From a virus: a stretch of DNA of 50,193 nt. The notes below the pieces were generated by a model that did no database searches, was not told the DNA's origin, and worked only from the letters and a program-made list of their open reading frames with translations. Positions 776-20,572 of this stretch are shown here, piece by piece. The stretch lies in the IMG/VR virus record IMGVR_UViG_3300044630_004832, positions 1-50,193 of that record. One strand, 5' to 3'. Positions within the stretch are counted from its first letter, which is position 1. Each line of letters opens with the position of its first letter. Made by a program: the position numbers and the translations under genes.

Positions 776-816
776 GGTCAGCATTTTCGACCACACCGAT
801 CACAAGTCTGAGAGTT

Positions 817-2904: not shown

Positions 2905-5900
2905 TGGAACAAATCATGATCATTACTGACGCTGCGACTGATAAGACTTTTGCTGTGGCAACTGAAGAAGACGGTTCGTTGCGACTGTTTGGTGTTGATT
3001 CTGCCGGACAGGAGTGGGCGGAGTGGGTTGATCAGGAAACGAAGGGCAGGGGTACTCTTAATTCGATTATCCCAACTCTTGGTTACGCGATGCGCATTGA
3101 GGGTCCGAAGCCGTTGACTCGTCAGTTGCGGTCACGTTTGGCTGACCTTCTGCCTAAGGTTCGAGATGATGTTCGGCTGGAGTTAGTTGAAGGTCGCGTA
3201 AAGGCTTCCGGTAAGAAGACTGCGGAGATCTCTCCGTCCGCAAAATATTTGCACCGCGATTTAGTTAAATCGATTGCTGCTAATCGGATTTCAGCAACGG
3301 GCTTTCATAATCGTCAAAACGTGATCAATTATAAAGCGAAGGCTTTTTTCATTGATCGTTATCACGCTTCGATGGCCTATGAGATCAAAAACGCAAATGC
3401 CATTTGGGATCCGAATCTGGGTCCGAGTGGTGGTTGGCGATGTCCGCCGGGAACACGATTTGGTGGTTATATCACCGATGAGTGGGGCCGTAATTGCGGA
3501 TTGGGGGTGACCCGTCGAATCGTTAATGCGATTACCAGCGTCGGGCAGGGTGCTACAAATTTTACTGATCGGCGCCGGGGGCGCCGCAAACCGGAGGGTT
3601 TAGGTCCTTCGTTGCGTGATTCGGCTCGTACTGGGGCTGAGTCTGTTGATGGCGAGTATGAACTGCCTGAACCGCCTGATGCGGTAGAAGGGGAGGCTCT
3701 TACTGTTGCTGATGTTGACATGGAACTTGTCGATCTTGAAGCAGGATCCCCAGAAGCGCGCAAAAATCGTCGTCGAACCAGAAGGGGCGCTCGCCAAGAA
3801 CGAGCAGACAACTTTCGAGAAGAGAGGCGTCAAAATAGTCGCTTTTATCGCTTCTTAGAAGACTTCGATGACCTTTTGGAGTACGGCGAAATTCGCTCTA
3901 ACGAAGAAAGAGATCAAGAATTAGCAGAATACAGAGAACGTCGTGGACGACCGGCGGAACAGCGACTTAGAGATTTGGCGGACAGGCTTGATCTCGGATG
4001 GGGCAGACGAGATGAAGACGAAGAGGAGCAACCTCAGCAGTCGCCTCGTCCTAGGGGGCGTGAGCGTTCCGTAGTCGACCCCGAGACAGGCGCAGTAACT
4101 ATCTTGGCTAGGTCACAAGAACCGTTAACAGCCGCTTATAGTGACCTCCGTGAAGAGTACTCAAATGACCCTGTAGCCCTTCGCCGTATCCGCGAATCAG
4201 AGAAGGGAGCCGAAACGATTGCAGAAAGTCGACGCAAACGAGATCAATTAGAACTAGATCAAATTGAGGATGGGTCGTTTGCAGCGAAAGTTTCTAACGG
4301 AGAGATCCCTCCGGCCGTTGATGGAGAGATCGATGATGACGGGGTAAGCGATCGGACTTCAGAAATCTTCGTTATAACTAAAATTCAACGATTGCGTGAA
4401 GCCGCTGATCGTTTAACGGAATCCGCTGAAGAGTTCTCGGAGAACTTGACTCGTAGTTCTTTGACGGAAAAAATTAAAAATGCTCGGGCGTTATATGATC
4501 TAGATGAAACTCAACGCCGTATCGCAAATTTGGCTGAGTGGCTGGAGCGAAGGGGAATAGATGATGTCGATTCAGTTCCTCCGGATATCACTTTGGGGGC
4601 TTTGTTTGATGGCGTTAAGCACGATATGTGGAAGCAGGAACAAGATGCTTCATTGTTTGAGTACACCCGAGAATTGGGTGAGGGAATCACTAGAGGTCTG
4701 AATGAGCCTGAGATTTACGATGAGTTGATTGACAAACTTAATAAAAGAATTGCTGATCTTGATGACAGGGTTAACAATAAAAACGAACCTTGGAATAGCC
4801 GAGTTGCTGCACAGGCTGAAAAAAACGGTCTTGCAAAAGTCCTTTTCGAAACGGAACGACATAAGGAGATGTCTCGTCAAGGTCGCATTCGCTTGGGTGA
4901 GATAGAGGCCGAAGAGGCTGGTGGTCTTTCTGCTGCTCAAAGGCAAGGACTTAAAACTAGGCGCGCCCGCACGAGAGAGATGTATGATCGGGAATTCGAA
5001 GCGCTGAAAACCTCGACTAGAGGTTTGGCTTATTTAAGTCGAGTTATCACCGACTATGAAGTTGATCAAGAAAACGCTTTGGCGGCATCTAAAGAACCTA
5101 TTTATAGTGATTTCGGTCGTGAGGCTTCTAAAGTTGACTACGAAGAAGTCGGCAGGCAGATAGAACGGCTTAAAGCCCTTTACGCTGAATTTGAAGCCGC
5201 GGGCGTAGATGTGCACGTTAGGCCGATTGTTGCTGACCCCGCTATTGATGATGAAATTTCCGAGGCAAAGAAACTGACTGATTTCGATGATCTTCGAAAA
5301 GAATTTGAAAAAGTTCCTGAAGAAATTGAAACAGAATTAAACATTTTCCCCGATTTGGAGAGGGCTGCCGAGTTCAGGGCGGAAATTGAATCTGAACAGG
5401 CTCAACTTGAACACTTGATGCGTGAATACGCGGAAAGCGATAATCCTAGAAACACTTTTCGTCAAGCGGCTTTGTATGCTGCTGACAGTCGTGACGTTAA
5501 TTTGGATTCCGGGCGTCTTTTGAATGATCCCGGTCTTTTGTTGATTGCTGAATATTATGATGGTCTTGCTCGCAAGTATCAGGCTCTTTCGGATTTTGCT
5601 CAGAATCGCGATCCGGATTCGGAAGTTGATGTGTCGCCTACTCGCGATTTTCCTAATGCTCCCGTTTTGCTTGAAGATGAGCGAGGAGCGTATGAGCGTC
5701 TGATTCCAGCCATTGAAAGTCGGGTTGAAGAGGATGCTGTTAATGCGGAAACTGCGGCTGCCCAGTCTTGGGAAAGTCGGCCTGAACCGGTCGCCGCGAA
5801 TAACGCAGCGTTCGCATCCTTAGAGCGCGCAGCACGATCCATGGAAAGAGAAGCCGATCTTTTAGTAGAGCGTATTTCTCGTATCATGGCCGGTGAAGTC

Positions 5901-7010
5901 CTGAGTCAGAATGAGGAAGCCGGTCTTTGGCGAACTGTTCGTCGATTTATTCCCGAATTCAATGCCGAAGATCTTGGCATTAGCGTTTCAGCGTCCCTTG
6001 GTCTTGAAATAGCACGTCTGAAAAGGGAGGCTGCAGCAAGACTTGTCGAATCAATGATTCCGTATTCCACGATTCCTGACATGAGTGCACGAGAACTTAT
6101 TGCTGCTCGGGCCAAATTCGTTAAGCGTTATTCGGATCAGTCTAGACGGCGTCGTAAACTGCTTCGCGGGTATGTGACTGATAATTATGGAAGCACTCGT
6201 CCTTGGTTGCGTTTCGACGTATCAGATTTTCTTGACACCGGCGCGACGCCGGGTGATGACGATTGGGACGATCAGAGAAGCCAAGCCATTTACTGGGCGG
6301 AATCGATGTTTACGATTGAAGAGTTTGAAGGTCGAGATGGCGTTTGGTTTAAAACTGGTTCTTTGAATGTCGGTTATGGTGGGGACGGCATCGAAGTTGA
6401 TGGCGCCATTTTTGCAAAGGATGGCGAGGATGGAGACTGGGAACAAGTAGGAAAATTTGACCGAACTATTACTACAGATCAGGTCAGCAATAACTCGATG
6501 TTCCTTGGCCCATCAGCGGGTTTTCACTCTGACCTTGCACAAAAAGTCCGCAATAAAGGTTTTCAAGGTGTCTTCAACCCGCACACTTGGTTGTGGGCTG
6601 ATGCGGCTGGAATTTCAAGGGTTTACGTTTCGGCTACGACGGATGGGCCTTACGTTTGGGGTCGTGTTGGATTCCGAACTGGGGCTTACGAGTTCGACGA
6701 CATTAAGGATGCCTTGAAAGGTGCGCTGCGCGAATATGAGCGAGGCACTGAAATGGATGGGATTATCCGTACAGATTTGGATGCGAATATGATTCGCTAT
6801 CTTCTGCATATTGCCGACATTCAGGGTGGAGATGCGTGGGGATTGCCTGAATTCATTGTTGCTACTTCTGATTATTATGGTTTAGATCCACAAGAGTTGC
6901 GTGCACGGGAAGCGTTCGTCAAGAGTTGGTGGATGAGCCATGTCCCATTTTCTAGTGGCGAGATAGAGTTTAGTGATGAGTATTTTGCCGACATGTATGA
7001 CATCGTTTGA
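2904..7010 (+). CDS. Giant head-region protein with shared WRC/GG/CG block and C-terminal GNAT-like acetyltransferase domain
   Basis: 1368 aa, start codon overlapping the previous stop (TAATG). Residues 1-50 resemble the small proteins encoded at 12815 and 15488 (a pattern like DGSLRLFGV), suggesting a small gene fused at the 5' end. Around residues 165-205 lies the block AIWDPNLGPSGGWRC, FGGY, NCG shared with the 1823- and 781-aa proteins. The long middle is charged and probably coiled coil. Around residues 1180-1265 the order VGKFDRTITTD, MFLGPSAG, KGFQGVFN, GISRVYVSA, GPYVWGRVGF resembles the GNAT-fold domain seen in actinobacterial polymorphic toxins, which ends in GGYAWARxGF. Acetyl-CoA-dependent modification of a host target would follow if it is active. 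The domain call is from memory of the pattern. Confidence 0.5.
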   Translation: MEQIMIITDAATDKTFAVATEEDGSLRLFGVDSAGQEWAEWVDQETKGRGTLNSIIPTLGYAMRIEGPKPLTRQLRSRLADLLPKVRDDVRLELVEGRVKASGKKTAEISPSAKYLHRDLVKSIAANRISATGFHNRQNVINYKAKAFFIDRYHASMAYEIKNANAIWDPNLGPSGGWRCPPGTRFGGYITDEWGRNCGLGVTRRIVNAITSVGQGATNFTDRRRGRRKPEGLGPSLRDSARTGAESVDGEYELPEPPDAVEGEALTVADVDMELVDLEAGSPEARKNRRRTRRGARQERADNFREERRQNSRFYRFLEDFDDLLEYGEIRSNEERDQELAEYRERRGRPAEQRLRDLADRLDLGWGRRDEDEEEQPQQSPRPRGRERSVVDPETGAVTILARSQEPLTAAYSDLREEYSNDPVALRRIRESEKGAETIAESRRKRDQLELDQIEDGSFAAKVSNGEIPPAVDGEIDDDGVSDRTSEIFVITKIQRLREAADRLTESAEEFSENLTRSSLTEKIKNARALYDLDETQRRIANLAEWLERRGIDDVDSVPPDITLGALFDGVKHDMWKQEQDASLFEYTRELGEGITRGLNEPEIYDELIDKLNKRIADLDDRVNNKNEPWNSRVAAQAEKNGLAKVLFETERHKEMSRQGRIRLGEIEAEEAGGLSAAQRQGLKTRRARTREMYDREFEALKTSTRGLAYLSRVITDYEVDQENALAASKEPIYSDFGREASKVDYEEVGRQIERLKALYAEFEAAGVDVHVRPIVADPAIDDEISEAKKLTDFDDLRKEFEKVPEEIETELNIFPDLERAAEFRAEIESEQAQLEHLMREYAESDNPRNTFRQAALYAADSRDVNLDSGRLLNDPGLLLIAEYYDGLARKYQALSDFAQNRDPDSEVDVSPTRDFPNAPVLLEDERGAYERLIPAIESRVEEDAVNAETAAAQSWESRPEPVAANNAAFASLERAARSMEREADLLVERISRIMAGEVLSQNEEAGLWRTVRRFIPEFNAEDLGISVSASLGLEIARLKREAAARLVESMIPYSTIPDMSARELIAARAKFVKRYSDQSRRRRKLLRGYVTDNYGSTRPWLRFDVSDFLDTGATPGDDDWDDQRSQAIYWAESMFTIEEFEGRDGVWFKTGSLNVGYGGDGIEVDGAIFAKDGEDGDWEQVGKFDRTITTDQVSNNSMFLGPSAGFHSDLAQKVRNKGFQGVFNPHTWLWADAAGISRVYVSATTDGPYVWGRVGFRTGAYEFDDIKDALKGALREYERGTEMDGIIRTDLDANMIRYLLHIADIQGGDAWGLPEFIVATSDYYGLDPQELRAREAFVKSWWMSHVPFSSGEIEFSDEYFADMYDIV

Positions 7011-7024
7011 TTTGAGGTTTTTTG

Positions 7025-7336
7025 ATGTTGTCTAAAAAAGAAACAGACTACGTTCGCGGTAAGTTCTTAACCGACATTACGGACTCAGATAAAAGGTCCA
7101 AGATTCTTTTTGTTGCCGACGCGCTTGCAAGCGAAATCGACAAAGACGATAACTACTATGACGTTTACTGGTCAATAGTCGGATATTTCCTTGACCCCAA
7201 AAATGACCAAGATCTAGAAAAAGACTTCAAAGATTTAGGCGGAAGCCTCACAATCGCCCCATTTGATACCCCTTACGAAGAATACCCACCGGGTATGCTT
7301 GATCAACCGGATCACGTTTTCAAATTCCCGAAATGA
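7025..7336 (+). CDS. Small acidic protein following the GNAT-domain giant
   Basis: 103 aa from the ATG at 7025, preceded by GAGG at 7014-7017. A TTG three bases earlier is a less likely start. The protein is acidic with a Tyr/Asp-rich centre (DDNYYDVYWSIVGYF) and a Pro-rich tail. No family is recognised. It lies 14 bases after a giant gene and 7 bases before the next one, the same position as the small genes at 12815 and 15488, although its sequence does not resemble them. A partner, chaperone or neutralising protein for the preceding large protein is possible, but nothing in the sequence shows this. Confidence 0.6.
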   Translation: MLSKKETDYVRGKFLTDITDSDKRSKILFVADALASEIDKDDNYYDVYWSIVGYFLDPKNDQDLEKDFKDLGGSLTIAPFDTPYEEYPPGMLDQPDHVFKFPK

Positions 7337-7343
7337 TGTGTGA

Positions 7344-10300
7344 ATGCATCGCAAAAGTTTTGTTGAACCCAAACTTGGGGTCACGGATCGCCCAATCGAT
7401 CGGCGCAATCCGCAACTTTGGCGATCATCAATTGAATACAAAGCACTCAGGTTTCGCCGCTCCAGCCGCCTAGCCACACTATCCTACGACATAAAATCAG
7501 GCGCAGCCGAATGGGACCCAAACCTCGGACCAAGCGGAGGTTGGCGATGCCGCACTGGAACTGAATTTGGTGGCTACATCACCGACCGGTGGGGACGAGG
7601 CTGTGGAGTCGGAGTATTTCGGCGACTCGTAAACACAATCGGTGGAGCAAACCGAAATAGAGCCGACTCTAAACCCAACCGTCGACGCGCTGCCCGTGAC
7701 GCCCGCTCTGGCGCCAGAAGGCTTCGGAGAATCGCGCAAGACAGAAACAACCTAGGCTCTCCCCCTCTCGGCATGGCAGCGAGCCGCGGAGAAGAGCCGG
7801 AGCAACCCCAAGACCAGCCGTGGGCAATCGAAGGGTTCCTGAATCGACTAGCGGATCTGCTTGCCCCAAACCCCAGAGGCGAAGGGCAGTCTCCGAGAAG
7901 GAACCGTAGACGTCAAGACATCGAAGACGCCGCCACATCACTGCCTCGTCCTGCCGTAGACCGTCCAGCAGACGAACCGCTACTCACTCCTGAGCCACGA
8001 ACCCGAACAAGACAGCCTCTCATAGATCCAGACAATGTTGACTGGGATCCCACAAAATGGCAAGCCATCCGCCAAGCCTATTTCGACGAGAGGGACCGGA
8101 TCATTTCAACATGGGGTACTCGCCTTGGTCTTGACGATGGAGTGGAACCGTCTATCGTGGCTGTTGACGCTTATGTTGCTGAACGACGAGAAACTGGACG
8201 AAATGCCGGTTATGTAGCGCGGTTAGAGAATGCTGCCAATGCATGGCGCACGATGTACACGCCCCCTTCACGCTTCACGATGGACGACATGGTTCGTCAA
8301 CTCAACGAGTTGAACCCTCGACGTGGCCGAGCCATTTTGGCAAACGCAGAAGAAATCGAAGCCCTTATTCGCAACGATGTTTCAGAATCGGACACGCCTG
8401 AGCCTGATCTTCCGGATGGAGATATTCCTGAGGCAGCAGTTTCGGTTCCTCAAGATGATGACTCTGAGGAGGGAGTTGCCGTTGAAGAACGCAAGCCCTT
8501 TGCGGAATTAGAGGAAATCAGAGAGGATGCTGTTGATTCTCCAAAAATGGAGAAAGCGCGAAACATTGTTAAACGGGTAAAAAAACAGTGGCGAAAATTA
8601 GATCGCGATCTCGATGAACGAATCGGCGACCCACAGTTGGGTCGTACAAGAACTTTGCTCTCTCGTCTGCGACGCATTCGTACTGATTCAATAAACGAGT
8701 ACGAGACGGGCAAGTTTGATTCACCTGAGGACGCGGTTGCTCCGGCGTATGTAGCGCAAAACCTTGAGCAGATAATTGCAGAAATAGATAAAATTATTGC
8801 GGCGATTGATCATGAATTGCCGGAGAATGTGGACGATATTGACGTTGAAAGTCTCATCGACCCGGATGCCTCATGGCGCAACACCGCTCGGCGGTGGCTA
8901 GAGGAAACGGAACTTGACACCGACGTTGTTCAAAGGCTTTTAGAGCAGTTATCTGCAGTCAGGGATTTGTTACAAAGAGTTGATGATGACGATGAGAAAG
9001 ACTTCGCCGAAGGTCGATTTAAAATACTTGAAAACATTAAAGAACTGTCTGACAGAAATGGCGTCATGATAATGTTTTCTCGCATTTTCCCAATGCCGGG
9101 TGGTGATCGGGGAGATCGACTGAACCCCCCAGCCTTGCAAGACATTTTCCACAAATTGGCAAATGATCGACAACGAAATTTCGAGAAACGGGTTTCGTTT
9201 CTCAAATCTTTGCTTGCCGAGTTATCTGCACAGGACCGAAAAATTGAAGAAGGGGACTGGAGTCCAAGAAACAATCTTTTCGTTGGTGACCCCCGCATCT
9301 CGTTGTCTCAATGGGAGGCGCACAGGGACCCCAGTGATCCCGATTACGCAGAATTGGCATTAGACCCCATTAATGATGCCGAGAAAGACATCGTCAGCGA
9401 CTTCAACAGGGCTATCGAGAGGGACGATGTAACTGCACTCCGAGACGTGGCTTCAAGAATTTGGGGGCTTGTCGGTGGGATTTCCGCTTGGCTCGACCGA
9501 GAGGAAGCAGACATAGATGGTCGCGGCGAAGAAAGTGCGCCACTGTATTCAATAAATGCCAGACGGCGATTTGAACAATTAGAATTCCTTGCCGAAATCC
9601 TTGAACGTATCGCAGACTTGGGTATACATAACGGACGGGATGAACGCCCACTTAACGAACGATCCTCGGCTATCAATGTTGATGACATTCGACAGAAGGT
9701 GAAGTTTCTTCGTGGCGGCTTAGTTACGGACCCGGGCGGCGATAAGTATCCAAGCGAAGTTATTTCGCCTGTACCGGAGATTCCTCGACTTCAGGAACTT
9801 GACTACCCATCGATAATGGATAGCAAATATGTTCGCGATCGGGAAAATTTTAAAACTCGTCTTCAAGAATCTTTTGATCGTGATTCTGATTTGGCTCGCC
9901 AGTTGGGCCAGTTTGGTGAAATCGACCGGGATGACATCGAGGGGATGCAAAGAAATCTTGACATCCTTACCCGTAGGGTTCAGTCGCGAATCAGCATGAT
10001 TACGGAGCCGGATATCCCTGAACTTGAAGAAGTTTGGGAATTCGAATATGCTAGTTATGAAGACCGAATTTACGCTGGATTACGTCTAAAGAGACTGCAA
10101 GCGATCAGAACGCAAATGCTGCGTGACGCTGTGCGTCTTGAAGAAGCAATTATTGAAGAACGTCAACGGGCTGGGGCAGATGCCCCCGCAATCCCAAACC
10201 TTCCGGAAATCTCTAACGACGTCGCTGAAACACTTGAAAAGATAAGTGACACTGAAATTCGCAAGTGGGCTAAGTCAATGCTCGGCGACATCGATCAGGA

Positions 10301-12815
10301 ATATGATCGTGAGGTCATTCCCAGTTTGGATACTCGGGGTCTTGATGAATTTGCTTATGTTTTAGGTTCCATTGATGAAGAAATTTGGACATTAGAGAAT
10401 GAACTTGTAAGAAAAAATGAAGACGGCAAAATAGCAAATCTATTACTTATTCAAAAACTGCAAGAAAAACAAGACAAAATAGAAAATTTGCTGGAGATAC
10501 GTCGAAACGAATTAAGTTCTTTCATTGACATCAAAGGTCTGAATCGGCAAATAGGGGAAAACTGGTCGGAAAGTGATATGGACTTGTTTCTAACTCTTTA
10601 TGAAGCAAGCGTTCATAGAGCAGGGCAAGCGGATGACGTTGATATTCCAGAGGATGATCTTGAACTTTTTCTTCTTGAGTTGAAACGTCATCATGCTGAC
10701 ACCAAGAACCGATATAGGTCTCGTTTGCCGCGAGCATTAGTTTTTCAAAATGATTGGGAAGAACTAACTGAAGATGTTGAAAAGCAAATCGAAGTAGAAG
10801 AATCAAAAGTGGGTGATGAAAGTCTGCTTTTGCTTGAACGTGCGGTTGCTTTTACTAAACTTCAGTCGCTGTTAGAAACAAAACGATATTTAGATGCATT
10901 CGCTAACAAGTGGTTGATTACCGATGATGACTTGCGGGCTAATCCTCCGGGCGACACTGACAGCCTGTTGAAAAAGGCTGTTGCATCATTGAGGGCACAA
11001 GGTTTTTCTTTGGATGACATCAGGCTTGACTCCGCCTTTGGAAGTTATGATGGCGCGCCTGTAAATAGGGTGCGTGGCATGCTGACTGTGGCGAATGACC
11101 AAGAGAGTTGGATGCAAGTCTCTCTCTCTATTGCAAGAACTATTCGAGACGCAGACGAGAGCATTCGTCAGGTCGTCGAAGAAGTACCTCACTACAATCA
11201 CTCCCGGCAAACATTAGCGTATCGGCAAATGATTATTGCTAAAACCCTCATTACGGAATCAGCGATTAAGCAAGAACTAGAAAAAATAATTGAAGAAACA
11301 CCCGAAATTTTGGACTTGACCTCACTAGCACCTCGACATGTCGAACCGTCAATTGCGCCACAACCAAATCGAGATGGAGATCGTCGAGGCAAACGATTCG
11401 TAGATAGAGTGCTTCGGCCTTTCAAGGGTTTCTATCCGCAAAGACGAAATCGTATGCGCGGTCAAATCGCTCATCGCGATGGAAGTCCGCGCAACATCGA
11501 GAACCCAGATATTACGGATGTTGAATCCGCTATCGATCATTTGCGACGAGGCGGCAGTTTGGACGAAGTCCCCAACAGATATTGGCTTGTCGCTATTGAC
11601 GCGAACTCAAGTGATGAAATTTTCGATAAATCAACTCGCTTTTACAAGAAACAAAAAATAGGTGGAATTATTGGGGAAACCTTGATCTACCTTGCTCGTG
11701 ACGATAATGGTGGGGCCGTCGAACAGGGTTGGGTCTTCAAAACAACATGGGATTACGGTAATGACGCACCCGTAAATGAACTTTCCGCAGTCATTGGAAC
11801 CTATTTTCTTCACGAATTAGGTCTTCCCGTCGAAGGTGGGGGCTGGGATGGAGTTCTAACAACACCTGACGACAATCCGTTTACAGCATCGTCCCGAGCC
11901 TTTTTCGTTCAACCGTACGTTGGGAATGCACTATCCGTTTCTCCACGCCCATTTGTCGCTTCAGACGTCATGGGAGGCGGAAGCAATTTTTCTGAAAGAC
12001 TTCTGAGGGTGGCTGTTCCCGATCCGAGTCGCTACGACGCTCAGGCTCCTGTTGGTTCTCTAATGTCCAGATTTCAGGCAAGGGGTCTATTGGGTCAGTA
12101 TTGGCCGGGATGGTCGGCCCGACTTGTCAACTATTTTTCGTCAGCAATGCTTGGTCTTTCGGATCGGCATTCTGGTAATGCAGTTTCTTTTATGACTGCG
12201 GATGGACCTGTGGTAATCCCAATCGATCTTGATTCGACCGGTAATATTGACGTCATAGGTTGGATGACTTACGTTCCAATGATGAACATGGAGCACGGCT
12301 CCGGAAACGGCTTTGCGGAAGGACCGGGAACTTTTGTCGATGACGCGACTAGAGATTTTGGGTTAGGTCTTGAAGTGGCTTGGCGGACCATTCAACTTGC
12401 TGACGAAATGCTCGATAACGCGGAAAAAATGATGGATATGGACCCGGACGAGTTTGCTCGAAAAATGCTTGAAGGGTTTTCAACATCAACAGATGGCGTT
12501 GTAGAAAACGCTGAACAGAGAGCGCGCTCAACGCTTGCTGACCTTCGGCTTACTTATATGAATCTGAAAGCAGACCGCTCCAATTTTTTGGCGGGCTTAC
12601 TTCGAAGGGCACTTCAAAATGCGCCATATGAATCCAGTGAAAAAAACGCATTGATTGAAGATTTAGTGGCTAACTATGAAGAGGCTAAATTTTACGAGTG
12701 GCCTGTCGATATAACGGGTATTAGTGAAGACGAGATATCGCAAGGTCCGATGATATGGTTGAGGCTTGCGGTTGAATTAAAAGAAATCCATGATCGAAAC
12801 GCTAGGGGGGTTTGA
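7344..12815 (+). CDS. Giant head-region protein with C-terminal PI3K/HipA-like kinase domain
   Basis: 1823 aa. The N-terminal 90 residues carry the shared module: KALRFRR, LSYDIKSGAAEWDPN, GPSGGWRC, FGGYITDRWGRGCG. A basic, Pro-rich linker follows, then more than 1000 residues rich in Glu, Asp, Arg and Leu that look helical or coiled coil. The last 360 residues resemble a kinase of the PI3K/HipA type: VFKTTW with Lys about 1466, an NELSAVIGTYFLHELGLP helix with a Glu partner, LSDRHSGN at about 1605-1612 (catalytic loop) and PIDLDS at about 1627-1632 (metal-binding Asp). All key residues are present, so phosphotransfer or nucleotidyl transfer is plausible. The substrate is unknown. It shares the TGATG junction with the next small gene. 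Confidence 0.55.
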   Translation: MHRKSFVEPKLGVTDRPIDRRNPQLWRSSIEYKALRFRRSSRLATLSYDIKSGAAEWDPNLGPSGGWRCRTGTEFGGYITDRWGRGCGVGVFRRLVNTIGGANRNRADSKPNRRRAARDARSGARRLRRIAQDRNNLGSPPLGMAASRGEEPEQPQDQPWAIEGFLNRLADLLAPNPRGEGQSPRRNRRRQDIEDAATSLPRPAVDRPADEPLLTPEPRTRTRQPLIDPDNVDWDPTKWQAIRQAYFDERDRIISTWGTRLGLDDGVEPSIVAVDAYVAERRETGRNAGYVARLENAANAWRTMYTPPSRFTMDDMVRQLNELNPRRGRAILANAEEIEALIRNDVSESDTPEPDLPDGDIPEAAVSVPQDDDSEEGVAVEERKPFAELEEIREDAVDSPKMEKARNIVKRVKKQWRKLDRDLDERIGDPQLGRTRTLLSRLRRIRTDSINEYETGKFDSPEDAVAPAYVAQNLEQIIAEIDKIIAAIDHELPENVDDIDVESLIDPDASWRNTARRWLEETELDTDVVQRLLEQLSAVRDLLQRVDDDDEKDFAEGRFKILENIKELSDRNGVMIMFSRIFPMPGGDRGDRLNPPALQDIFHKLANDRQRNFEKRVSFLKSLLAELSAQDRKIEEGDWSPRNNLFVGDPRISLSQWEAHRDPSDPDYAELALDPINDAEKDIVSDFNRAIERDDVTALRDVASRIWGLVGGISAWLDREEADIDGRGEESAPLYSINARRRFEQLEFLAEILERIADLGIHNGRDERPLNERSSAINVDDIRQKVKFLRGGLVTDPGGDKYPSEVISPVPEIPRLQELDYPSIMDSKYVRDRENFKTRLQESFDRDSDLARQLGQFGEIDRDDIEGMQRNLDILTRRVQSRISMITEPDIPELEEVWEFEYASYEDRIYAGLRLKRLQAIRTQMLRDAVRLEEAIIEERQRAGADAPAIPNLPEISNDVAETLEKISDTEIRKWAKSMLGDIDQEYDREVIPSLDTRGLDEFAYVLGSIDEEIWTLENELVRKNEDGKIANLLLIQKLQEKQDKIENLLEIRRNELSSFIDIKGLNRQIGENWSESDMDLFLTLYEASVHRAGQADDVDIPEDDLELFLLELKRHHADTKNRYRSRLPRALVFQNDWEELTEDVEKQIEVEESKVGDESLLLLERAVAFTKLQSLLETKRYLDAFANKWLITDDDLRANPPGDTDSLLKKAVASLRAQGFSLDDIRLDSAFGSYDGAPVNRVRGMLTVANDQESWMQVSLSIARTIRDADESIRQVVEEVPHYNHSRQTLAYRQMIIAKTLITESAIKQELEKIIEETPEILDLTSLAPRHVEPSIAPQPNRDGDRRGKRFVDRVLRPFKGFYPQRRNRMRGQIAHRDGSPRNIENPDITDVESAIDHLRRGGSLDEVPNRYWLVAIDANSSDEIFDKSTRFYKKQKIGGIIGETLIYLARDDNGGAVEQGWVFKTTWDYGNDAPVNELSAVIGTYFLHELGLPVEGGGWDGVLTTPDDNPFTASSRAFFVQPYVGNALSVSPRPFVASDVMGGGSNFSERLLRVAVPDPSRYDAQAPVGSLMSRFQARGLLGQYWPGWSARLVNYFSSAMLGLSDRHSGNAVSFMTADGPVVIPIDLDSTGNIDVIGWMTYVPMMNMEHGSGNGFAEGPGTFVDDATRDFGLGLEVAWRTIQLADEMLDNAEKMMDMDPDEFARKMLEGFSTSTDGVVENAEQRARSTLADLRLTYMNLKADRSNFLAGLLRRALQNAPYESSEKNALIEDLVANYEEAKFYEWPVDITGISEDEISQGPMIWLRLAVELKEIHDRNARGV

Positions 12816-13135
12816 TGGCTAAAGAGTTTGCAGTTTTTAAAAGGTTCACTGGAATCCTTGCGGATAACACGGAGCCAGTTGGTTTGATCGTCTTAAACGA
12901 TGACAAAATTGAAATCTACGGGGTGGTACGAAAATGGAAGAATCAATGGGTTCCCTACTTTGAAAACTCCACATTTGAGCGACACTTAACAACAGCAAGT
13001 CCGTTGTCAAGCATTTTTGCCGCGCCATATGGAGCGCCAAGCGTCTACCCCATTTCAGATCAATACAAGTGGATTCTTGATTCAACGAAACAAAAGATGA
13101 CCGGCAAGGTCATAAAAATCACTTTAAAGAAATAG
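12815..13135 (+). CDS. Small partner-type protein after the 1823-aa kinase-like giant
   Basis: 106 aa; the ATG overlaps the previous stop (TGATG), so translation is probably coupled. The segment PVGLIVLNDDKIEIYGVVRKW resembles PAGVLIDGDNLEVWGIF in the protein at 15488 and DGSLRLFGV at the N-terminus of the 1368-aa protein, so the three probably share a small beta-rich domain. No known family is recognised. The repeated arrangement of a large gene followed by this domain suggests a cognate partner (chaperone, loading factor or inhibitor), which is inference. Confidence 0.6.
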   Translation: MAKEFAVFKRFTGILADNTEPVGLIVLNDDKIEIYGVVRKWKNQWVPYFENSTFERHLTTASPLSSIFAAPYGAPSVYPISDQYKWILDSTKQKMTGKVIKITLKK

Positions 13136-13139
13136 TTTG

Positions 13140-15485
13140 ATGCTTACCAAACCTTTTGCTCCAACTTCCAAGAAACAGCAGTATGCGACAGTTCGCATTG
13201 TTAATAATTCCGTTTCCGATTGGCAAAATACTGTAAATTTCAAGGCCCTTCAATTTCGCAGGGCGAGAGAAATTTCAAGCATTAAATATGATTTGAAAAA
13301 CAATAATGCCATTTGGGATCCGAACGTTGGCCCGAATGGTGGTTGGCGTTGCGGCACCGATCTGACTGGAGGCGGAGAGTTTACGGACAGATACGGCCGA
13401 GGCTGTGGCGGGCGAGTTCGTCGCCTTCTTGGCGCCATAGGCGGAGCAGTCCAAACAGGGCTTCCCGGTCGTATCGGAAAGAACCCAAAGCGAGTCGCCG
13501 AAACTGTGACAAGAGAAGTTGAAGTTGCCGTGGAGCGAGACCGAAGTCAAACCGCTCAATGGTGGGAAGCGTTCTCGCCAGAGAAGCCCAAGTGGTTGAA
13601 GGTCCACGAAAACATTATGCGAAGCATTCAGGGGGATGTTCAGCCAACGTCACGCAAGATTCGACAAGCGATTTCTGCAATTGAGTCGAATTTGGATTCG
13701 GTAAACAAAATCCTGAAGAGTGGAAAACTGGCACCCAAAGAAGAGAATATTCAAAAGATCAGAGGGGACATTTACGGGGACGATTTGCTTTACCTCGAAA
13801 GTCTTCTCGATGAGGCGTATGAAAATGAATTACGCACGAATCGGGCTACGGGTGTGGCGTTGAGTCGTCTAGGGAAAGATGGCGAGCAGGAGCGGGCTAT
13901 CGCTTTGGTTAAGGCAAATACGGATGCATGGCGTCTGCAGGTTGAAGACTCAATTGCCAATGGGACTCTTCAGCAACTGTCTGACATGCTGAAACAATTG
14001 ACTCGCGAATCAGCAGGTCAGTTTAAGATTCAAACAGATCAAGAAGCAGATCGATTCGACAGGGCCGTTGCGACAGCAATGGTCCAGTTTTTTAATAAAA
14101 GAATTACTGCCGTGCAGGAAGCCGCGGCGCTTAGGGAAAAAGCATTAAAAAGGCGGCAGTCAATTCTTGATAGGGTCAAAGCGGCGGCGCGTACAAAAAC
14201 TAAACTCGGGCGCCTTGACCCATCCGTAGAAGCGTGGCTTGCAGACCCTATCGTGGCGGCGGATTATCTGCGATCTTCAGTTTCGGCAAAAGTTTCTCGC
14301 CGGGGAAATCTTGCGGCTATTCCAGATGAAGTTTTAATTGAGGCAATGATCGGACGCGATACGGTTGTTGAAGAAGTCGGGAAAGGCACAGGCGGAGGCA
14401 TTCCAATTCCTCGCATTCGGGTTGATGACCCAATAGAAGTAGAAGACATTCTTACTTCGGATGCTGGCGGATTTCCGGTCGGAACGAAGTTATCAAATCC
14501 AAGATTCGACTTTGAATTAATCAAAAACAATGCTCAACGACAACTCTGGACAGTTTGGAAAGTTGTTGATAAAGACACAGGCGAAATGTATTTTCTTAAG
14601 GGTTCTAACATGAGTGCTAACGAAGCAATTGCTGAAATTGCTGGTGCCGAGATTGCCGGATTAATTGGATTTCCTCGCGACGAAAAGTTTGGTGGAATCA
14701 GGGTCGACAAGCGGCGAACGTCTAGTTCAGAAAAACGCGCTGCCCGGTGGGTGATTTCTCGACACGTTGGCCATTATCAGCCTGACGCCTTGCGCGGCGA
14801 GCGGCTTGAGGACTTCAAAAGCGCTGCGCGTGTAGTTAGGGAGGGTGGCTCAAATGTCACTTTTGTTGAGACTCGGCCCGGGGATAGGAGTACCCGAACG
14901 GATGTTCTGGACCTTGGCCCTGAAGAGACCGCAAAGATAACTTTGCTTGACTATTTGGTAGATAACCACGACCGTCATTTTGGAAATTTCTTTATTTACA
15001 ATGACACTGATGGAGTTCCAAGAATTGCTCCAATCGATCACGGCATTGTTACTGGAGGCGAGGTTGATAGAGGATTGTCGACAGTGGTTTCCGCTGATCA
15101 GTTGGCAGAGGATGCCGCTTACAGGTCGTCTTTAACACCATTTGATTTTGGGCTAAATGTTATGCATCCAGTTTTCAATTATGTTCATGTTAAGTCGTCT
15201 GACCGGATTGCTTATTTGGACGCAATTCAAGAGTTAGTTGACACTCTTAGCGAGGCGGGCATTGATGATCTTTTATCTCCGGAGCGACTTTCAAGCAAGG
15301 GGATGAGGTTGTCCTCTACCGAGAAAGCCCATTTAGCGGCAATTGCTGAAGTCGCTAAAGCGAGGTTAACTATGTTGAAAACTAAGGGTCCGAGGTTGAT
15401 GATTAAGCCATTTCAAAATCGAATTGAAACTGATATCTCTGCCGCTGATGTGGCTTCCCGGGCTGTTACTCGGAGGGACAGGTAA
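13140..15485 (+). CDS. Head-region protein with shared N-terminal module and intact PI3K/HipA-like kinase domain
   Basis: 781 aa from the ATG at 13140 (a TTG lies just upstream). The N-terminus has the shared module: FKALQFRRAREISSIKYDLK, NAIWDPN, GPNGGWRC, GGGEFTDRYGRGCG. A helical charged middle follows. The C-terminal half has kinase features in order: an MYFLKG strand with Lys about 487, a helix ANEAIAEIAGAEIAGLIGF with Glu residues, LVDNHDRHFGNF with DRHFGN about 611-616 and PIDHG about 631-635. These correspond to the catalytic loop and metal-binding motif of PI3K/HipA-like kinases and their actinobacterial relatives. It is the best preserved of the three kinase-like domains here. The substrate is unknown; delivery into the host as a virion protein is inferred from its position. 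Confidence 0.6.
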   Translation: MLTKPFAPTSKKQQYATVRIVNNSVSDWQNTVNFKALQFRRAREISSIKYDLKNNNAIWDPNVGPNGGWRCGTDLTGGGEFTDRYGRGCGGRVRRLLGAIGGAVQTGLPGRIGKNPKRVAETVTREVEVAVERDRSQTAQWWEAFSPEKPKWLKVHENIMRSIQGDVQPTSRKIRQAISAIESNLDSVNKILKSGKLAPKEENIQKIRGDIYGDDLLYLESLLDEAYENELRTNRATGVALSRLGKDGEQERAIALVKANTDAWRLQVEDSIANGTLQQLSDMLKQLTRESAGQFKIQTDQEADRFDRAVATAMVQFFNKRITAVQEAAALREKALKRRQSILDRVKAAARTKTKLGRLDPSVEAWLADPIVAADYLRSSVSAKVSRRGNLAAIPDEVLIEAMIGRDTVVEEVGKGTGGGIPIPRIRVDDPIEVEDILTSDAGGFPVGTKLSNPRFDFELIKNNAQRQLWTVWKVVDKDTGEMYFLKGSNMSANEAIAEIAGAEIAGLIGFPRDEKFGGIRVDKRRTSSSEKRAARWVISRHVGHYQPDALRGERLEDFKSAARVVREGGSNVTFVETRPGDRSTRTDVLDLGPEETAKITLLDYLVDNHDRHFGNFFIYNDTDGVPRIAPIDHGIVTGGEVDRGLSTVVSADQLAEDAAYRSSLTPFDFGLNVMHPVFNYVHVKSSDRIAYLDAIQELVDTLSEAGIDDLLSPERLSSKGMRLSSTEKAHLAAIAEVAKARLTMLKTKGPRLMIKPFQNRIETDISAADVASRAVTRRDR

Positions 15486-15487
15486 GC

Positions 15488-15847
15488 ATGGCTAAGCGTT
15501 ATTTGGTCCTTGAGAATCTTAATAAACTGGCAGACGACCCCGATCGGTATCCAGCCGGAGTTCTTATTGATGGCGATAATCTGGAAGTTTGGGGGATTTT
15601 CAAGACCTATCTTCTTCGTGGTGGCGGCTTTAATGCTTCCTACGCAAAACTTTTTGTTGAGGCTCGTGAAGCCGAATGGGCATTGACTGACCTAAGTCAA
15701 GTCATGTCATATCAGGACATGCCCAACAAAAAAGAATCACTTCTTTTAGAAGTTGAAGCAGAGGAAGAGGAAATGTCTGCAATTCGTGATCTGGTCCCTA
15801 AAGCCGAGAGAGTAAGATTAAAAAACCCCTATGGCCGCGACAACTAA
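15488..15847 (+). CDS. Small partner-type protein after the 781-aa kinase-like protein
   Basis: 119 aa, ATG two bases after the previous stop. The segment YPAGVLIDGDNLEVWGIFKTY resembles the core of the small protein at 12815, and both start MAK. The C-terminal third is acidic and helical (EVEAEEEEMSAI). Its last 17 bases overlap the start of the next gene. No known family is recognised. Its position directly behind a kinase-like gene supports a large/small gene pairing, but the function is unknown. Confidence 0.6.
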   Translation: MAKRYLVLENLNKLADDPDRYPAGVLIDGDNLEVWGIFKTYLLRGGGFNASYAKLFVEAREAEWALTDLSQVMSYQDMPNKKESLLLEVEAEEEEMSAIRDLVPKAERVRLKNPYGRDN

Positions 15848-16529
15848 CTCCGAACAGGCATTTCCGAGCAAACGACAAGCAAGTCGCGTTGCTCGCATGC
15901 TCGGCTGCAATAGCAGCCATCAAGATGAAAACGGCATGTGGATGCCCTGCGCAACCCACGATCAATTGATTGGGTTGACAGCGGCAAGCGGGAAATCCGT
16001 AAAACGTAAAAGACGCGGAACTGGAGCCAAGCGTCCTAAAAAATACGAAAAACTAATTGAACGTGGCGTTCTAGGGATTGACACCTTGGCAGACGGCAGT
16101 CTTGTCTCTACCCCAATATCCGCAAAGGCCGCGCGCCGCTTGGCCGCAACACCTGCACCCCCCAAAGACCGAGTTTACGGCTCAACCAGAAATTCTAGAA
16201 ATTCTGCTTCCTCTAAAAGAAGCGCCGGAAAAATCTCAATTGACTTCACGACCGAACAGAGTCTGAAGGCAAAAGTCAAAGATCATAACGAAAAACTGTC
16301 TCCTGATCAGGCGTGGAAACGTACGAGTCTGGCAACCCTGAAAGCGGTTTACAGGAGAGGTGCTGGGGCTTTTAGCGTCAGCCATAGACCGGGCATGAAT
16401 CGAAATCAATGGGCGATGGGACGCGTAAATGCTTTCCTGAAGATGCTTCGATCCGGCAAGCCAGACAATAAACGCTATGTGACGGATAATGATTTGTTGC
16501 CGCGCAAGCACCCATGGCGGAAACCCTAG
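15831..16529 (+). CDS. Conserved phage head-region basic protein
   Basis: 232 aa, very basic. The N-terminal part has paired cysteines (MLGCNSSHQ, MPCATH) followed by a KRKRRGTGAKRPKK stretch. The C-terminal 80 residues contain HNEKLSPDQAWKRTSLATLK, VYRRGAGAFSVSHRPGM, NQWAMGRVNAFL and DNDLLP. This resembles a short conserved domain found in proteins near the portal, protease or capsid genes of several phage groups; I cannot name it securely. It is the last gene before the capsid gene and overlaps the preceding gene by 17 bases. A head-assembly or nucleic-acid-binding role is plausible. Confidence 0.55.
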   Translation: MAATTNSEQAFPSKRQASRVARMLGCNSSHQDENGMWMPCATHDQLIGLTAASGKSVKRKRRGTGAKRPKKYEKLIERGVLGIDTLADGSLVSTPISAKAARRLAATPAPPKDRVYGSTRNSRNSASSKRSAGKISIDFTTEQSLKAKVKDHNEKLSPDQAWKRTSLATLKAVYRRGAGAFSVSHRPGMNRNQWAMGRVNAFLKMLRSGKPDNKRYVTDNDLLPRKHPWRKP

Positions 16530-16673: not shown

Positions 16674-17987
16674 ATGTCGTTTGACGAGAGTCGCCTGCGG
16701 GAACTTCAGGGTGCCCTGCGGGAAAAGATGGCCAGCAACAAGGAGATCGCTGACTCCTTCCGCGTAGAGGGCGGCACCGTTATGGTGTCGACCGAGCAGA
16801 AGAGCGCGTTCGACAAGAACATGGCCGACATCAAAGAGATCAAGTCCCTTATCGATGGCATGGAAAACATGCGTTCGATCGAAGACTGGGGCGTTCAGGC
16901 CCCCGTCGAGTCGCTTGCAGCCGCTGTGGCCGCTGGCGAATCGCTTGGTCGCTATTCATCCACCAAGAGCCTTGGCTCAATGTTCCTTGAATCAGCAGAG
17001 TTCAAGTCTCTTGATGGTGGCCGTAATGGAGCCAACATGCCCTCCCCGTTCACCCTCAGCCGAGGCGACGTCACCGGCATGTGGAACCAAAAGGATATCT
17101 TCTCGGCACTGCCGTCAGGTACCCCGGGTTCCTTCGGCACCATTGAGCGCGATCCGATCGTGGTTCCGCCAATGCGTACCCGTCGCGTCCGTGACCTGTT
17201 CCCGACTCGTACCACCACCGCTGCGGTGATTGAGTACTTCCAGATGACGGGCTTCACGAACAACGCTTCGTCGGTCGCCGAGCGCAACCCCGGCAACACC
17301 GCGTTCCAGACCAAGCCACAGTCGTCCTTCACCTTCACGGGTCAACAGGCTCCGATTCGTACGCTTGCCCACTGGGAAGCAGCGCATCGCAATGTTCTCG
17401 CTGACGAACCGCAGTTGCGTTCGATCATCGACAACGAACTGCTTTACGGCCTTCGTCTTCAGGAAGACGCCCAGATCCTCAATGGTGATGGTATTGGTGA
17501 AAACCTCACCGGTATTCTTCAGACCTCTGGTGTTCAGCAGTACTCATGGTCCAGCGGTGCAACGCTTCCGGTTCCGGACACCAAGGCTGATGCGATCCGT
17601 CGTGCAGCCACTCTCTCGTTCCTTGCTTACTACGAGCCAACCGGCGTCGTCGTGCATCCGAACGATTGGGAAGACATCGAACTGACCAAGAACGATCAAG
17701 GCACCTACCTCATGGCAGTGTCCATGCAGATGGGTTCCGAGGCTCGTATCTGGCGTATGCCAATCGTCGACACCCCGGCCATCACCGAGGGCAAGGCTCT
17801 TGTTGGTGCGTTCGGTACTGGCGCTCAACTGTACGACCGCGAGCAGGCTTCGATTCGAATCAGCGAACAGCATTCGGACTTCTTTGTCCGCAACGCAATC
17901 GTGATTCTTGCCGAGCAGCGCCTCGCCCTTGCGGTGAAGCGTCCAGAGTCGTTCGTCGAAGTTACCTTCAACAACGCTCCTGCCTGA
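16674..17987 (+). CDS. HK97-fold major capsid protein
   Basis: 437 aa. Residues 1-60 are helical and charged, like the scaffolding delta domain. The rest reads as a phage_capsid family protein: an N-arm, VPPMRTRRVRDLFPT, EYFQMTGF, PQSSFTFTGQQAPIRTLAHWEAAHRNVLADEPQLRSII (given here in parts: the E-loop/spine helix region), then LLYGLRLQEDAQILNGDG, the P-domain feature GVVVHPNDWEDIELTK, IVDTPAI and a DREQASIRISEQHSDFF A-domain strand. This forms the icosahedral shell. Codon choice is richer in C-ending codons than in its neighbours, as expected for a highly expressed gene. It has a strong ribosome binding site and its own terminator. The prohead protease usually precedes it directly; here about 15.7 kb intervenes. 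Confidence 0.93.
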   Translation: MSFDESRLRELQGALREKMASNKEIADSFRVEGGTVMVSTEQKSAFDKNMADIKEIKSLIDGMENMRSIEDWGVQAPVESLAAAVAAGESLGRYSSTKSLGSMFLESAEFKSLDGGRNGANMPSPFTLSRGDVTGMWNQKDIFSALPSGTPGSFGTIERDPIVVPPMRTRRVRDLFPTRTTTAAVIEYFQMTGFTNNASSVAERNPGNTAFQTKPQSSFTFTGQQAPIRTLAHWEAAHRNVLADEPQLRSIIDNELLYGLRLQEDAQILNGDGIGENLTGILQTSGVQQYSWSSGATLPVPDTKADAIRRAATLSFLAYYEPTGVVVHPNDWEDIELTKNDQGTYLMAVSMQMGSEARIWRMPIVDTPAITEGKALVGAFGTGAQLYDREQASIRISEQHSDFFVRNAIVILAEQRLALAVKRPESFVEVTFNNAPA

Positions 17988-18405: not shown

Positions 18406-18653
18406 TAGTGGCCATCTACGAAGTTATCCCACAAGAGGGCTTCATACATTTCAGATGAAACAGCGACAAAGCATTCCATACAGCGAGGTGGCTGTGATGG
18501 AGCATCACTTGCTATTACGTCAAACACGGGTTTTTCAATTTCACAACTAAAACAGAATCCGTGATTGACAGGGCTGAGCCATCCAATTTCGACTGCCCTT
18601 AAAATGGCAGCCTCCATGGCGGTTTCTAGGAATTCTGGATCTTCAAAGATCAT
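18405..18653 (-). CDS. Small zinc-ribbon-like protein downstream of nrdJ
   Basis: 82 aa from the ATG at 18653, which overlaps the nrdJ stop as ATGA; an ATG at 18665 would give four more residues. CFSC and CMEC, about 25 residues apart, form a likely zinc site. The N-terminus is helical and acidic. It sits between nrdJ and a DUF6197-like gene in one translationally coupled operon. No specific function is recognised; a small redox or zinc protein assisting the reductase is only a guess from context. Confidence 0.6.
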   Translation of the reverse strand: MIFEDPEFLETAMEAAILRAVEIGWLSPVNHGFCFSCEIEKPVFDVIASDAPSQPPRCMECFVAVSSEMYEALLWDNFVDGH

Positions 18654-20572
18654 CGGACTGGGCATGCGCCAGTAGCGCAGGACGGGTCGTCGAGCAAGTT
18701 GTCATCGACGGTGGAGCCGATTGGAATGCTCATATCGACCTTTGCGACCATTTTGTCGTAAGTCGCTTCGTCAATTTCTTCGTAAGGGGCAAGAAGGAAA
18801 TTGTGGTCCGAATGCAACAAGAAAGAAACCGACTTGACAGACGTGTCGAAATTTTCGCTGAGCCATTCTTTAATGCTGGGTAGTTCTTCCATGCGGTAAT
18901 AGACCGTGACGGAAACAGCGTTATCGGCCCATTCGGTTTGCATTTTTTTAACCCATTGGAGTTGCTCCACGGCGGTCATGTCCGAAGCGAGGATCGCGTT
19001 GTCTGGAGATTTGGCCGGGAATTCCACAACCCATTTGGTGTGATCCTCTCGTCCGTCAAGCCCGATTTCAGGGACCACGGTGTATCCACGTTGACGACAC
19101 GCATCAACGAGGGGGTCTGCTGCGCTGAATCGGACCCTGCGAATGTAGAACCGGGCGTATGCCGGGTGAATGCCCGGTGTGACGCCGGGGAGCAATGAAA
19201 GCGTGCCGGAGGGCTGAACCGTGGTGAGGCGCACAGAGCGAGGAATCCCCAAGGCGTCGGAGTGCTTCTCGTCAAGGGCTTTCAAGTACTCGTATCCGCT
19301 GTCAAGCCATGACAGTTGTTCTTTGTTCGCTTGAAGTACGCCAGTGATTGATTGTCCAAGACGTCGGTTTTTAGCGACGATGCGGTTTGTTTTTGCGTAT
19401 GGGTAACGAAGGTTTGTGATCTGTTTTTGAACAAGGTAGAGAAGGCGACTGATCTCTTTAAATTGCTTGAGTGACTCTACGTTGGGGAGGAAGATTGTTG
19501 CCAAGTTGCATGATTCCCCGTCGGCTAACGCAATCTCGGCGCATGGGTTAAATCCCTCGATTGACGGGTCTGGTCGCTTTTCTCCAAGGCGCCCGACCGT
19601 TCTTGCAAGTTTCCGGTTGAGTAGACCGTATGGCTCTCCAGAGCCGTCATAGCCCTTCCAGAGTTCTGACATGATCTCATCGAACCCGTCCGCGTAGATT
19701 GAGTTATTTGAGTTTGCGCGCCATGCAGGGACCGTGCCTGAAGCCCAATTTTTTGCTCTCAGGAATAGGATGTCGTCAGGGTCGCCAATAGCGATTTGAG
19801 CGGAGCGACGGCTGGATCCAGAAACCACGATTCGACCGATGATGTTAGCAATATCGAGAACGTCTACTGATCGGAGTTTCTTGCCTGCTCGGTTGTCCAT
19901 GACTTTGCAAATATCAGCGATTCCGTCAATGAGTGAGCCGGGTCCTGAGGCTGTTCCTCCAAACGTTTTGAGTGGGGCGCCAAATTCGCGGATGAGCATC
20001 GTGGAGTAGGAGAACGATTTCCCTGTGTAGAAATATGACTTAAGCACGGCGTGGAGGATGCGCTTCCATCCTTCGCGGCTGTCGGGGACAATAATGTCTG
20101 CATCGTTTGTTCGTTCGTGGAGAATCTCTACCCCGGAGCGAATCTTTGGGAACTCATGGATTTTGGAGCGTTCTACGGAGAATCCGACTCCACCGCCGAG
20201 CATTAGGTGGTCGAAAAGGAACTCAAAGTCTTCAATGCTCTCGATGTTGACAAAATAGCAGTTGTTAAGTGAAGCCCCATTAAACTGTTGAACGAGGGGT
20301 GTTCCTAGTTGCCATAGTGCGCGACCGCTGAAAGAGCAGCGGAGATGGAACATATGGTCAAAGAGCATTTCTGCTTCTTTGTCCGTATATGGGGTTCCGA
20401 TTTCGATAGCGCCGTTGATTACGCGAGCGACTGTTTCGGGCCAAGTTTCGTTTCGGTTTTGATCTTCGATGAATCGGCTGTAGGTCCGAAGGTAGACAAT
20501 TTCGCCTAATCCGCCAAATCCCCATGGTGGCTGCTTGGTTGCGTATGACTTTAAGAATGCTTCTGAAAGCAC
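18650..20572 (-). CDS. nrdJ: Adenosylcobalamin-dependent (class II) ribonucleotide reductase, monomeric RTPR type
   Basis: 640 aa, GTG start with AGGAG about 12 bases upstream. Reduces ribonucleotides to deoxyribonucleotides for phage DNA synthesis using coenzyme B12. Key residues are visible: C105 in LNNCYF (disulphide partner), FNPCAE with the thiyl C344 and nearby Asn and Glu, C355 in ESCNLATI (second redox Cys, 11 residues later as in Lactobacillus RTPR), QPSGTLSLLPGVTPGIHPAY, and a C-terminal C-x4-C pair (CATGAC) that relays electrons from thioredoxin. It is shorter than the 739-residue Lactobacillus enzyme. It is the second gene of a four-gene minus-strand operon. Such reductases are common in actinobacterial phages. 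Confidence 0.95.
   Translation of the reverse strand: MLSEAFLKSYATKQPPWGFGGLGEIVYLRTYSRFIEDQNRNETWPETVARVINGAIEIGTPYTDKEAEMLFDHMFHLRCSFSGRALWQLGTPLVQQFNGASLNNCYFVNIESIEDFEFLFDHLMLGGGVGFSVERSKIHEFPKIRSGVEILHERTNDADIIVPDSREGWKRILHAVLKSYFYTGKSFSYSTMLIREFGAPLKTFGGTASGPGSLIDGIADICKVMDNRAGKKLRSVDVLDIANIIGRIVVSGSSRRSAQIAIGDPDDILFLRAKNWASGTVPAWRANSNNSIYADGFDEIMSELWKGYDGSGEPYGLLNRKLARTVGRLGEKRPDPSIEGFNPCAEIALADGESCNLATIFLPNVESLKQFKEISRLLYLVQKQITNLRYPYAKTNRIVAKNRRLGQSITGVLQANKEQLSWLDSGYEYLKALDEKHSDALGIPRSVRLTTVQPSGTLSLLPGVTPGIHPAYARFYIRRVRFSAADPLVDACRQRGYTVVPEIGLDGREDHTKWVVEFPAKSPDNAILASDMTAVEQLQWVKKMQTEWADNAVSVTVYYRMEELPSIKEWLSENFDTSVKSVSFLLHSDHNFLLAPYEEIDEATYDKMVAKVDMSIPIGSTVDDNLLDDPSCATGACPVR

Follow-up and report, generated by a model that had tools for sequence, protein, structure and literature searches.

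Predicted PI3K/HipA-type kinases at the ends of large proteins encoded ahead of a phage capsid gene, and their possible role as packaged effectors

The stretch of DNA analysed here (the window) is the whole of the IMG/VR virus record IMGVR_UViG_3300044630_004832, 50,193 bases long, and comes from an uncultured, water-borne tailed phage. Ahead of its major capsid gene it encodes two large proteins, P1 and P2, whose C-terminal domains are predicted to fold as kinases of the PI3K/HipA/CotH type, with their catalytic and metal residues present. Another protein of the same gene row ends in a degenerate copy of the domain, and between related viruses the C-termini are exchanged. We lean towards the reading that these are packaged and injected kinase effectors of a polymorphic head-operon locus. 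An earlier note, made by a model from the letters of the window, had pointed to two open reading frames (ORFs) as kinases in phage head-region proteins; the third, degenerate kinase domain, the N-terminal motif with two cysteines in four large proteins and the exchangeable C-termini go beyond it.

Kinase domains of P1 and P2

Both ORFs, and the C-terminal motifs that the earlier note had quoted from them, were located as described and in the same order. In P1 the motifs are VFKTT at residue 1464 (Lys 1466), NELSAVIG at 1478, DRHSGN at 1607 (nucleotide 12162) and PIDLD at 1626 (nucleotide 12219). Those of P2 are FLKGS at 486 (Lys 488), EAIAEIAGAE at 496, DRHFGN at 612 (nucleotide 14970) and PIDHG at 632 (nucleotide 15030), and the distance from the catalytic to the metal Asp is 21 residues in P1 and 22 in P2. 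Chance motifs could be ruled out: DRH.GN followed by PID within 8–22 residues was found in 0 of 40,000 shuffles of P1 and P2, and there were no matches to a hidden Markov model (HMM) of the 34 family members outside the window among 20x shuffled or reversed window ORFs. A looser form of the arrangement appeared in 5 of 10,000 shuffles. The same HMM recognised P1 (7.1e-42), P2 (1.3e-34) and the protein at 817–2904 (3.1e-16). In Pfam, full-length P2 is similar to PI3_PI4_kinase at 1.2e-5 and to HipA_2 at 3.9e-4, and its kinase domain taken separately at 5e-6 and 8e-5; for both families this is just under the curated cut-off. P1 alone gave no match to either of them.

AlphaFold (AF2) models of the kinase domains, built from 36-sequence alignments, reached a predicted template modelling score of 0.82 for P2 and 0.79 for P1. 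In both models the Lys (1466 in P1, 488 in P2) lies on a predicted strand and is followed by a Glu-bearing helix, DRH is in a loop that joins a long helix to a strand, and the metal Asp comes after the following strand. The top match of P2 in Foldseek was the HipT kinase (1.1e-5) and that of P1 was CtkA, weak at 5e-3. With a second structural aligner CotH ranked first for both: P2 matched CotH (Z 15.3, 278 residues aligned at 4.3 Å), CtkA (13.1) and HipA (12.6), and P1 matched CotH (Z 13.3, 265 residues at 4.5 Å), PI4KIIalpha (12.0), CtkA (11.7) and HipA (11.4). The family profile compared to the PDB gave DNA-PKcs (0.0014), PI3K alpha (0.0027) and CtkA (0.0039). Among predicted viral structures (BFVD) the matching proteins were from uncultured Caudovirales, with a best E-value of 1.2e-18, and from the Gordonia phages GodonK and Sixama, 1.2e-4 and 3.9e-4. 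That the order of the motifs, and the spacing of the last two, fit the PI3K/HipA fold was well judged in the earlier note, and structure prediction, which it had proposed as a check, did not return an unrelated fold. As far as models can tell, a fold of the PI3K/HipA/CotH type is nearly certain for the P2 domain and highly probable for that of P1. The two domains share this predicted fold, and the set of Lys, Glu (displaced in P1), DRHxxN and metal Asp, with CotH, CtkA, HipA/HipT, PI4K, PI3K and Fam20, but those proteins are cellular, have other partners and no head-region context, and are only 8–16% identical over the aligned residues.

The high rank of HipT and HipA among the structural matches is what would be expected if P1 and P2 were HipA toxins of ordinary toxin–antitoxin pairs, lying in the head region by happenstance. 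We rejected such a HipBA pair, which is highly improbable: no HipB-like helix-turn-helix partner was found by Pfam (E ≤ 0.01) in the small ORFs at 7022–7336, 12812–13135 and 15488–15847, P1 and P2 lack a HipA N-terminal domain in Pfam at E ≤ 1, and the domains form part of long modular proteins.

The kinases had been called apparently intact. This holds for P2, where Glu500 sits in the helix-Glu column of the family, and for the catalytic and metal residues of both proteins; it does not extend to the helix Glu of P1, where the family column is occupied by Ala 1482 and the protein's own Glu, 1479, comes one helical turn earlier. Judged from models and residues, the P2 domain is likely to be catalytically active, and for the P1 domain activity is somewhat favoured.

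The kinase family and its degenerate branch

Five related viral contigs were found from the kinases or the N-terminal module as queries. With the capsid protein as query there were 558 relatives, and the best 80 by capsid similarity were kept, a choice that makes the sample lean to close relatives; seven contigs from metagenome-assembled genomes (MAGs) were added. Each locus was examined over no more than 10 kb ahead of the capsid gene, so that the absence of a domain from a locus is not proof. Among named phages, Brevibacterium phage Cantare and Gordonia phages have the nearest capsid proteins (45–47% identity), and an actinobacterium is therefore the likely host. Capsid genes of the group also occur in seven contigs (L096–L102) filed as Phycisphaerae, Gammaproteobacteria, Verrucomicrobiales and actinobacterial MAGs, which are probably viral contigs binned with cells.

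Iterated profiles seeded by the P1 and P2 kinases and by the third window protein converged on each other. The yield of this search, with window sequences as seeds, was 87 domains, or 55 once near-duplicates were removed, and these were labelled K1, K2 or K3 by their best profile. The catalytic Asp, the Asn and the metal Asp are together present in 26/26 K1, 6/6 K2 and 4/23 K3 domains. As the labels do not depend on these residues, the statement for the 32 K1 and K2 domains is not circular; it would be so for the set of 36 domains that was defined by the three residues. In that set the Lys is conserved in 32 of 36, the helix Glu in 34, and the Arg and His of DRH in 34 and 29, respectively, and 24 of the 36 match Pfam PI3_PI4_kinase at E ≤ 0.1, with a best value of 2.1e-7. 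The motifs are kept in homologues of 12–30% identity, which answers a doubt raised in the earlier note, that they might not be conserved. No convincing match was found by tblastn of P1, P2 and the relatives' kinase domains against cultured-phage records, and neither P2 as a single query against viral contigs nor the kinase alignment against genome contigs gave a match. Two relatives, L006 (16055–20035) and L015 (6578–10840), have a tandem pair of kinase domains in one polypeptide, and in all four of these domains the Lys column holds Gln or Ala.

Kinase-fold enzymes that catalyse other reactions exist. It is conceivable that the domains studied here have the kinase fold and catalyse a different reaction, such as the transfer of AMP or glutamate, or that they are no longer active and serve just to bind nucleotide or proteins. 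The known cases of other reactions, the missing Lys in 4/36 domains, the displaced Glu of P1 and the K3 domains without catalytic residues would all be in line with this, but the three residues are present in 32/32 K1 and K2 domains, and Lys and Glu in nearly all, and we consider this explanation quite improbable.

To count the loci, capsid proteins were clustered at 97% identity (91 loci; L012, L013, L052, L010 and L011 were dropped beforehand), and 39 of the resulting groups had 8 kb or more of sequence ahead of the capsid gene. A kinase-like domain was present in 29 of the 39 and one of the catalytic kind in 19; within the stretch examined, ten groups had no kinase-like domain and a further ten none of the catalytic kind. 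Upstream of the capsid gene in 20/39 groups there is a degenerate K3 domain. The window has one itself, its third kinase-like copy, in the protein at 817–2904, where the Lys, the catalytic Asp and the Asn are replaced. Of the 23 K3 domains, 18 lack the catalytic residue set and one more is a fragment of 76 residues, which is counted in the 55 and excluded from the alignment of 18 non-redundant members. In this alignment the K3 branch is seen to conserve a distinctive pattern, SDxLTDxRxRxPxS. The domain of the 817–2904 protein belongs to this widespread branch; its catalytic residues have been lost, and its role would be that of a pseudokinase.

N-terminal modules and exchanged C-termini in the pre-capsid interval

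The proteins at 817–2904 and 2904–7010, P1 and P2 have an N-terminal motif in common, with two cysteines 18 residues apart, and in three of the four its surroundings are 43–51% identical. The protein at 2904–7010, for which no kinase match was found, has an extra N-terminal module in addition, and this was found in 35 ORFs (a count that includes second views of some contigs, and L009, which is cut by the contig end). In 19 of the 35 the ORF ends in a kinase and in 16, including the window's own copy, it does not. The last 270 residues of the 2904–7010 protein have no relative in the loci compared and no family match, and are a candidate effector domain. In one relative (L018, 262–3120) a two-cysteine protein has acidic repeats resembling procyclic acidic repetitive protein (4.5e-12), which is likely a matter of low complexity.

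The ten kinase-less groups have ORFs of up to 3,224 residues in the interval. In three of these groups the giant ORFs were scanned with Pfam, which revealed MPTase-PolyVal (7.9e-43), an ArdC N-terminal domain (4.1e-25) and zeta toxin (best 1.7e-20), together with DnaJ, NUDIX and pentapeptide repeats. The remaining groups were examined by BLAST against those three, and six of the seven had zeta-toxin-like stretches, which makes nine of ten. The exception, L024, has the two-cysteine module, and in L027, L050, L071 and L081 zeta-like stretches occur alongside kinases. Portal-like and protease-like ORFs, recognised by reading the translations and not by family search, lie upstream in L005–L008. 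The gene adjoining the capsid gene has DUF3721 near its start in the window, L014, L042 and L058. In Gordonia phage ChisanaKitsune, which has a related capsid, the annotation places a VIP2-like ADP-ribosyltransferase, a different enzyme, in the same portal–capsid interval. Streptomyces phage Gilgamesh (L108, 2657–16531) encodes an unannotated protein of 4624 residues between a portal–MuF fusion and the capsid, without a kinase match.

These replacements recall the polyvalent proteins, described in the available text of Iyer et al. 2017 (PMC5512222) as large and modular, encoded beside portal or terminase genes, with exchangeable enzyme domains, and thought to be packaged and injected. Like them, the proteins of the window are encoded near head genes, just before the capsid gene, and MPTase-PolyVal and ArdC, hallmarks of polyvalent proteins, occupy the interval in two groups of the window's relatives, both among the nine with zeta-toxin-like stretches. 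The kinase domains which that text reports from polyvalent proteins are of Ser/Thr/Tyr type without the C-terminal subdomain, unlike P1 and P2, and this short-lobed group was rejected for the two proteins, as the models show a helical C-lobe and loops of PI3K type. The interval is likely to be a locus of exchangeable effector proteins of the polyvalent kind.

It is also possible to imagine that the kinases serve assembly, by phosphorylating the scaffold, the protease, the capsid or neighbouring head proteins, with the pseudokinase as a structural or regulatory partner. The position in the head operon would suit such a role, as would the degenerate K3 domain of 20/39 groups, and the size and shared N-terminus would fit minor head proteins. 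The groups that lack a kinase-like domain, or one of the catalytic kind, imply that catalysis is seemingly not needed for the particle, and the C-termini are exchanged, which makes an assembly role rather unlikely.

Possible role of the kinases, and neighbouring genes

The closest precedent is the HipA-family kinase encoded between the portal and capsid genes of five ‘Gratiaviridae’ gut phages (Benler et al. 2021, PMC8008677); as in the window, a tailed phage has a HipA-related kinase gene in the interval between portal and major capsid. Compared by description, in the available part of that paper, the two cases differ: no shared N-terminal module is described for the Gratiaviridae kinase, nor a pseudokinase, further copies or a giant protein fused to it. 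The earlier note had expected the fusion of kinases to putative virion proteins to be unusual, which must be tempered by this published case and by the kinases of other types in polyvalent proteins (PMC5512222, available text). We found no published report of the family itself in a full-text search for phage kinases in a head or virion context, which was thin on subscription papers and preprints and in which the two papers just cited were the only close ones to come up, and a term search of the available text of a freshwater phage survey (PMC6802176) did not find the word ‘kinase’.

In the mechanism that we propose, the shared N-terminal modules of the large proteins, one of them with two cysteines, would probably direct them into the prohead, and the C-terminal domains, exchanged between relatives, would supply the effector function. 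The proteins would be produced late, enter the particle together with the DNA and be injected; the kinases, if active, would phosphorylate host proteins early in infection. Packaging and injection seem reasonably probable from the gene position and from the replacements in relatives. A more detailed version is tentative and on balance doubtful: the two-cysteine modules could sort the kinases and the pseudokinase into the head, where the pseudokinase would hold or regulate the kinases until injection, the host would then be reprogrammed before phage genes are read, and the kinases would be swapped like polymorphic toxins.

The main rival is that the kinases are real and unpackaged, made late and acting in the producing cell, for instance to block superinfection or change the envelope. 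According to the available text of PMC8008677, superinfection immunity was suggested for the Gratiaviridae kinase, which has the same portal-to-capsid position and for which late expression was argued. P2 has a weak match to the PADLOC candidate-defence model PDC-M03A (E 0.00069). This would leave unexplained why N-terminal modules are shared by proteins with different C-termini, and why the kinases are replaced by polyvalent proteins, which are thought to be injected (PMC5512222, available text), and we regard it as unlikely.

Several observations weigh against packaged, injected kinase effectors. P1 and P2 have one recognisable catalytic domain each and are therefore not, taken alone, multi-domain polyvalent proteins, although at least two disparate catalytic domains in one polypeptide do occur in the relatives L042 and L087. 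Some K1 domains, four of the 36 with the catalytic set, are without the Lys, and the helix Glu of P1 is displaced; a relative in L007 likewise has Ala in the Glu column. Pfam, NCBIfam and PHROGs gave no named function for the N-terminal module. In the stretches examined of Cantare, ChisanaKitsune, DalanDe, GMA6 and Gilgamesh there was no convincing kinase match: at E ≤ 1 the kinase profiles gave only one match on these five cultured relatives, at 0.0058 in a reverse-strand frame of GMA6, which is taken as chance.

A large family with intact catalytic residues lies near the capsid gene in 19/39 groups, about half, and is interchangeable with zeta-toxin and anti-restriction proteins, and if the kinases are indeed packaged and injected, kinase injection would be a common way of infecting aquatic bacteria. 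Only a small number of phage protein kinases have been studied so far; the available text of PMC8008677 counts two that are characterised. The P2 domain, compact at about 370 residues and with a well-placed catalytic residue, offers a clean biochemical test.

The features of the region are listed in Table 1. From 20 to 16529 the genes all share a strand and are tightly packed, some separated by short gaps and others overlapping slightly; the capsid gene is next, at 16674. P2 can start at a TTG (13137, 782 residues) or at an ATG (13140, 781 residues), and the ATG, which has a purine-rich stretch ahead of it, is the likelier start. A small ORF of 104–119 residues follows, on the 3' side, every large two-cysteine protein from 2904 onward. 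Pfam, NCBIfam and PHROGs gave no named function for these small ORFs or for the C-terminus of the 2904–7010 protein, and those at 12812–13135 and 15488–15847 have no relatives among the loci compared. Only the one at 7022–7336 has detectable homologues there; as these adjoin effector ORFs in several relatives, it may act as a companion. The small ORFs may be chaperones or immunity proteins. Outside the head region, a protein of 2512 residues (40594–48132, minus strand), in which an RNase_T exonuclease domain (8.5e-12) is combined with DUF3626 (3.3e-19), is perhaps another polyvalent-type protein. Soon 3' of the capsid gene, where the named relatives have head–tail genes, the window has a ribonucleotide reductase gene (phrog_367, 1e-145) at 18650–20572 on the minus strand.

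Table 1. Features of the window up to and including the capsid gene (aa, amino acids; NT, N-terminal)
Feature	Position	Strand	Evidence or remark
Acidic protein	20–775	+	weak similarity to head maturation protease family, phrog_80 2.1e-5
695-aa protein, degenerate kinase domain (K3 type) and own two-cysteine motif (about 1216–1299)	817–2904	+	
Degenerate kinase domain, Lys, catalytic Asp and Asn replaced	2080–2895	+	HMM without window members, 3.1e-16
1368-aa protein, layout as kinase proteins, non-kinase C-terminus	2904–7010	+	NT module E 7.1e-36
Extra N-terminal module	2904–3143	+	corresponding slot gene of relatives has same module, often kinase-ended
Small companion ORF (putative)	7022–7336	+	homologues adjoin effector ORFs in several relatives
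P1, 1823 aa, C-terminal K1-type kinase	7344–12815	+	ORF
P1 N-terminal two-cysteine module (WDPNLGPSGGWRC..GGYITDRWGRGCG)	7425–7640	+	NT profile E 9.8e-30; alignments
P1 kinase domain, aa 1387–1749	11502–12590	+	Lys1466, Glu1479 (displaced), Asp1607, Asn1612, Asp1628
Small ORF between P1 and P2; ATG 12815 overlaps P1 stop	12812–13135	+	
P2, 782 aa, C-terminal K2-type kinase	13137–15485	+	ORF
P2 N-terminal two-cysteine module	13224–13433	+	NT profile E 1.7e-27
P2 kinase domain, aa 390–759	14304–15413	+	Lys488, Glu500, Asp612, Asn617, Asp634
Small ORF 3' of P2	15488–15847	+	
DUF3721/DUF5824 protein	15831–16529	+	in relatives DUF3721 opens large proteins at same position
HK97-type major capsid protein	16674–17987	+	Phage_capsid 6.3e-44; phrog_10 1.7e-61

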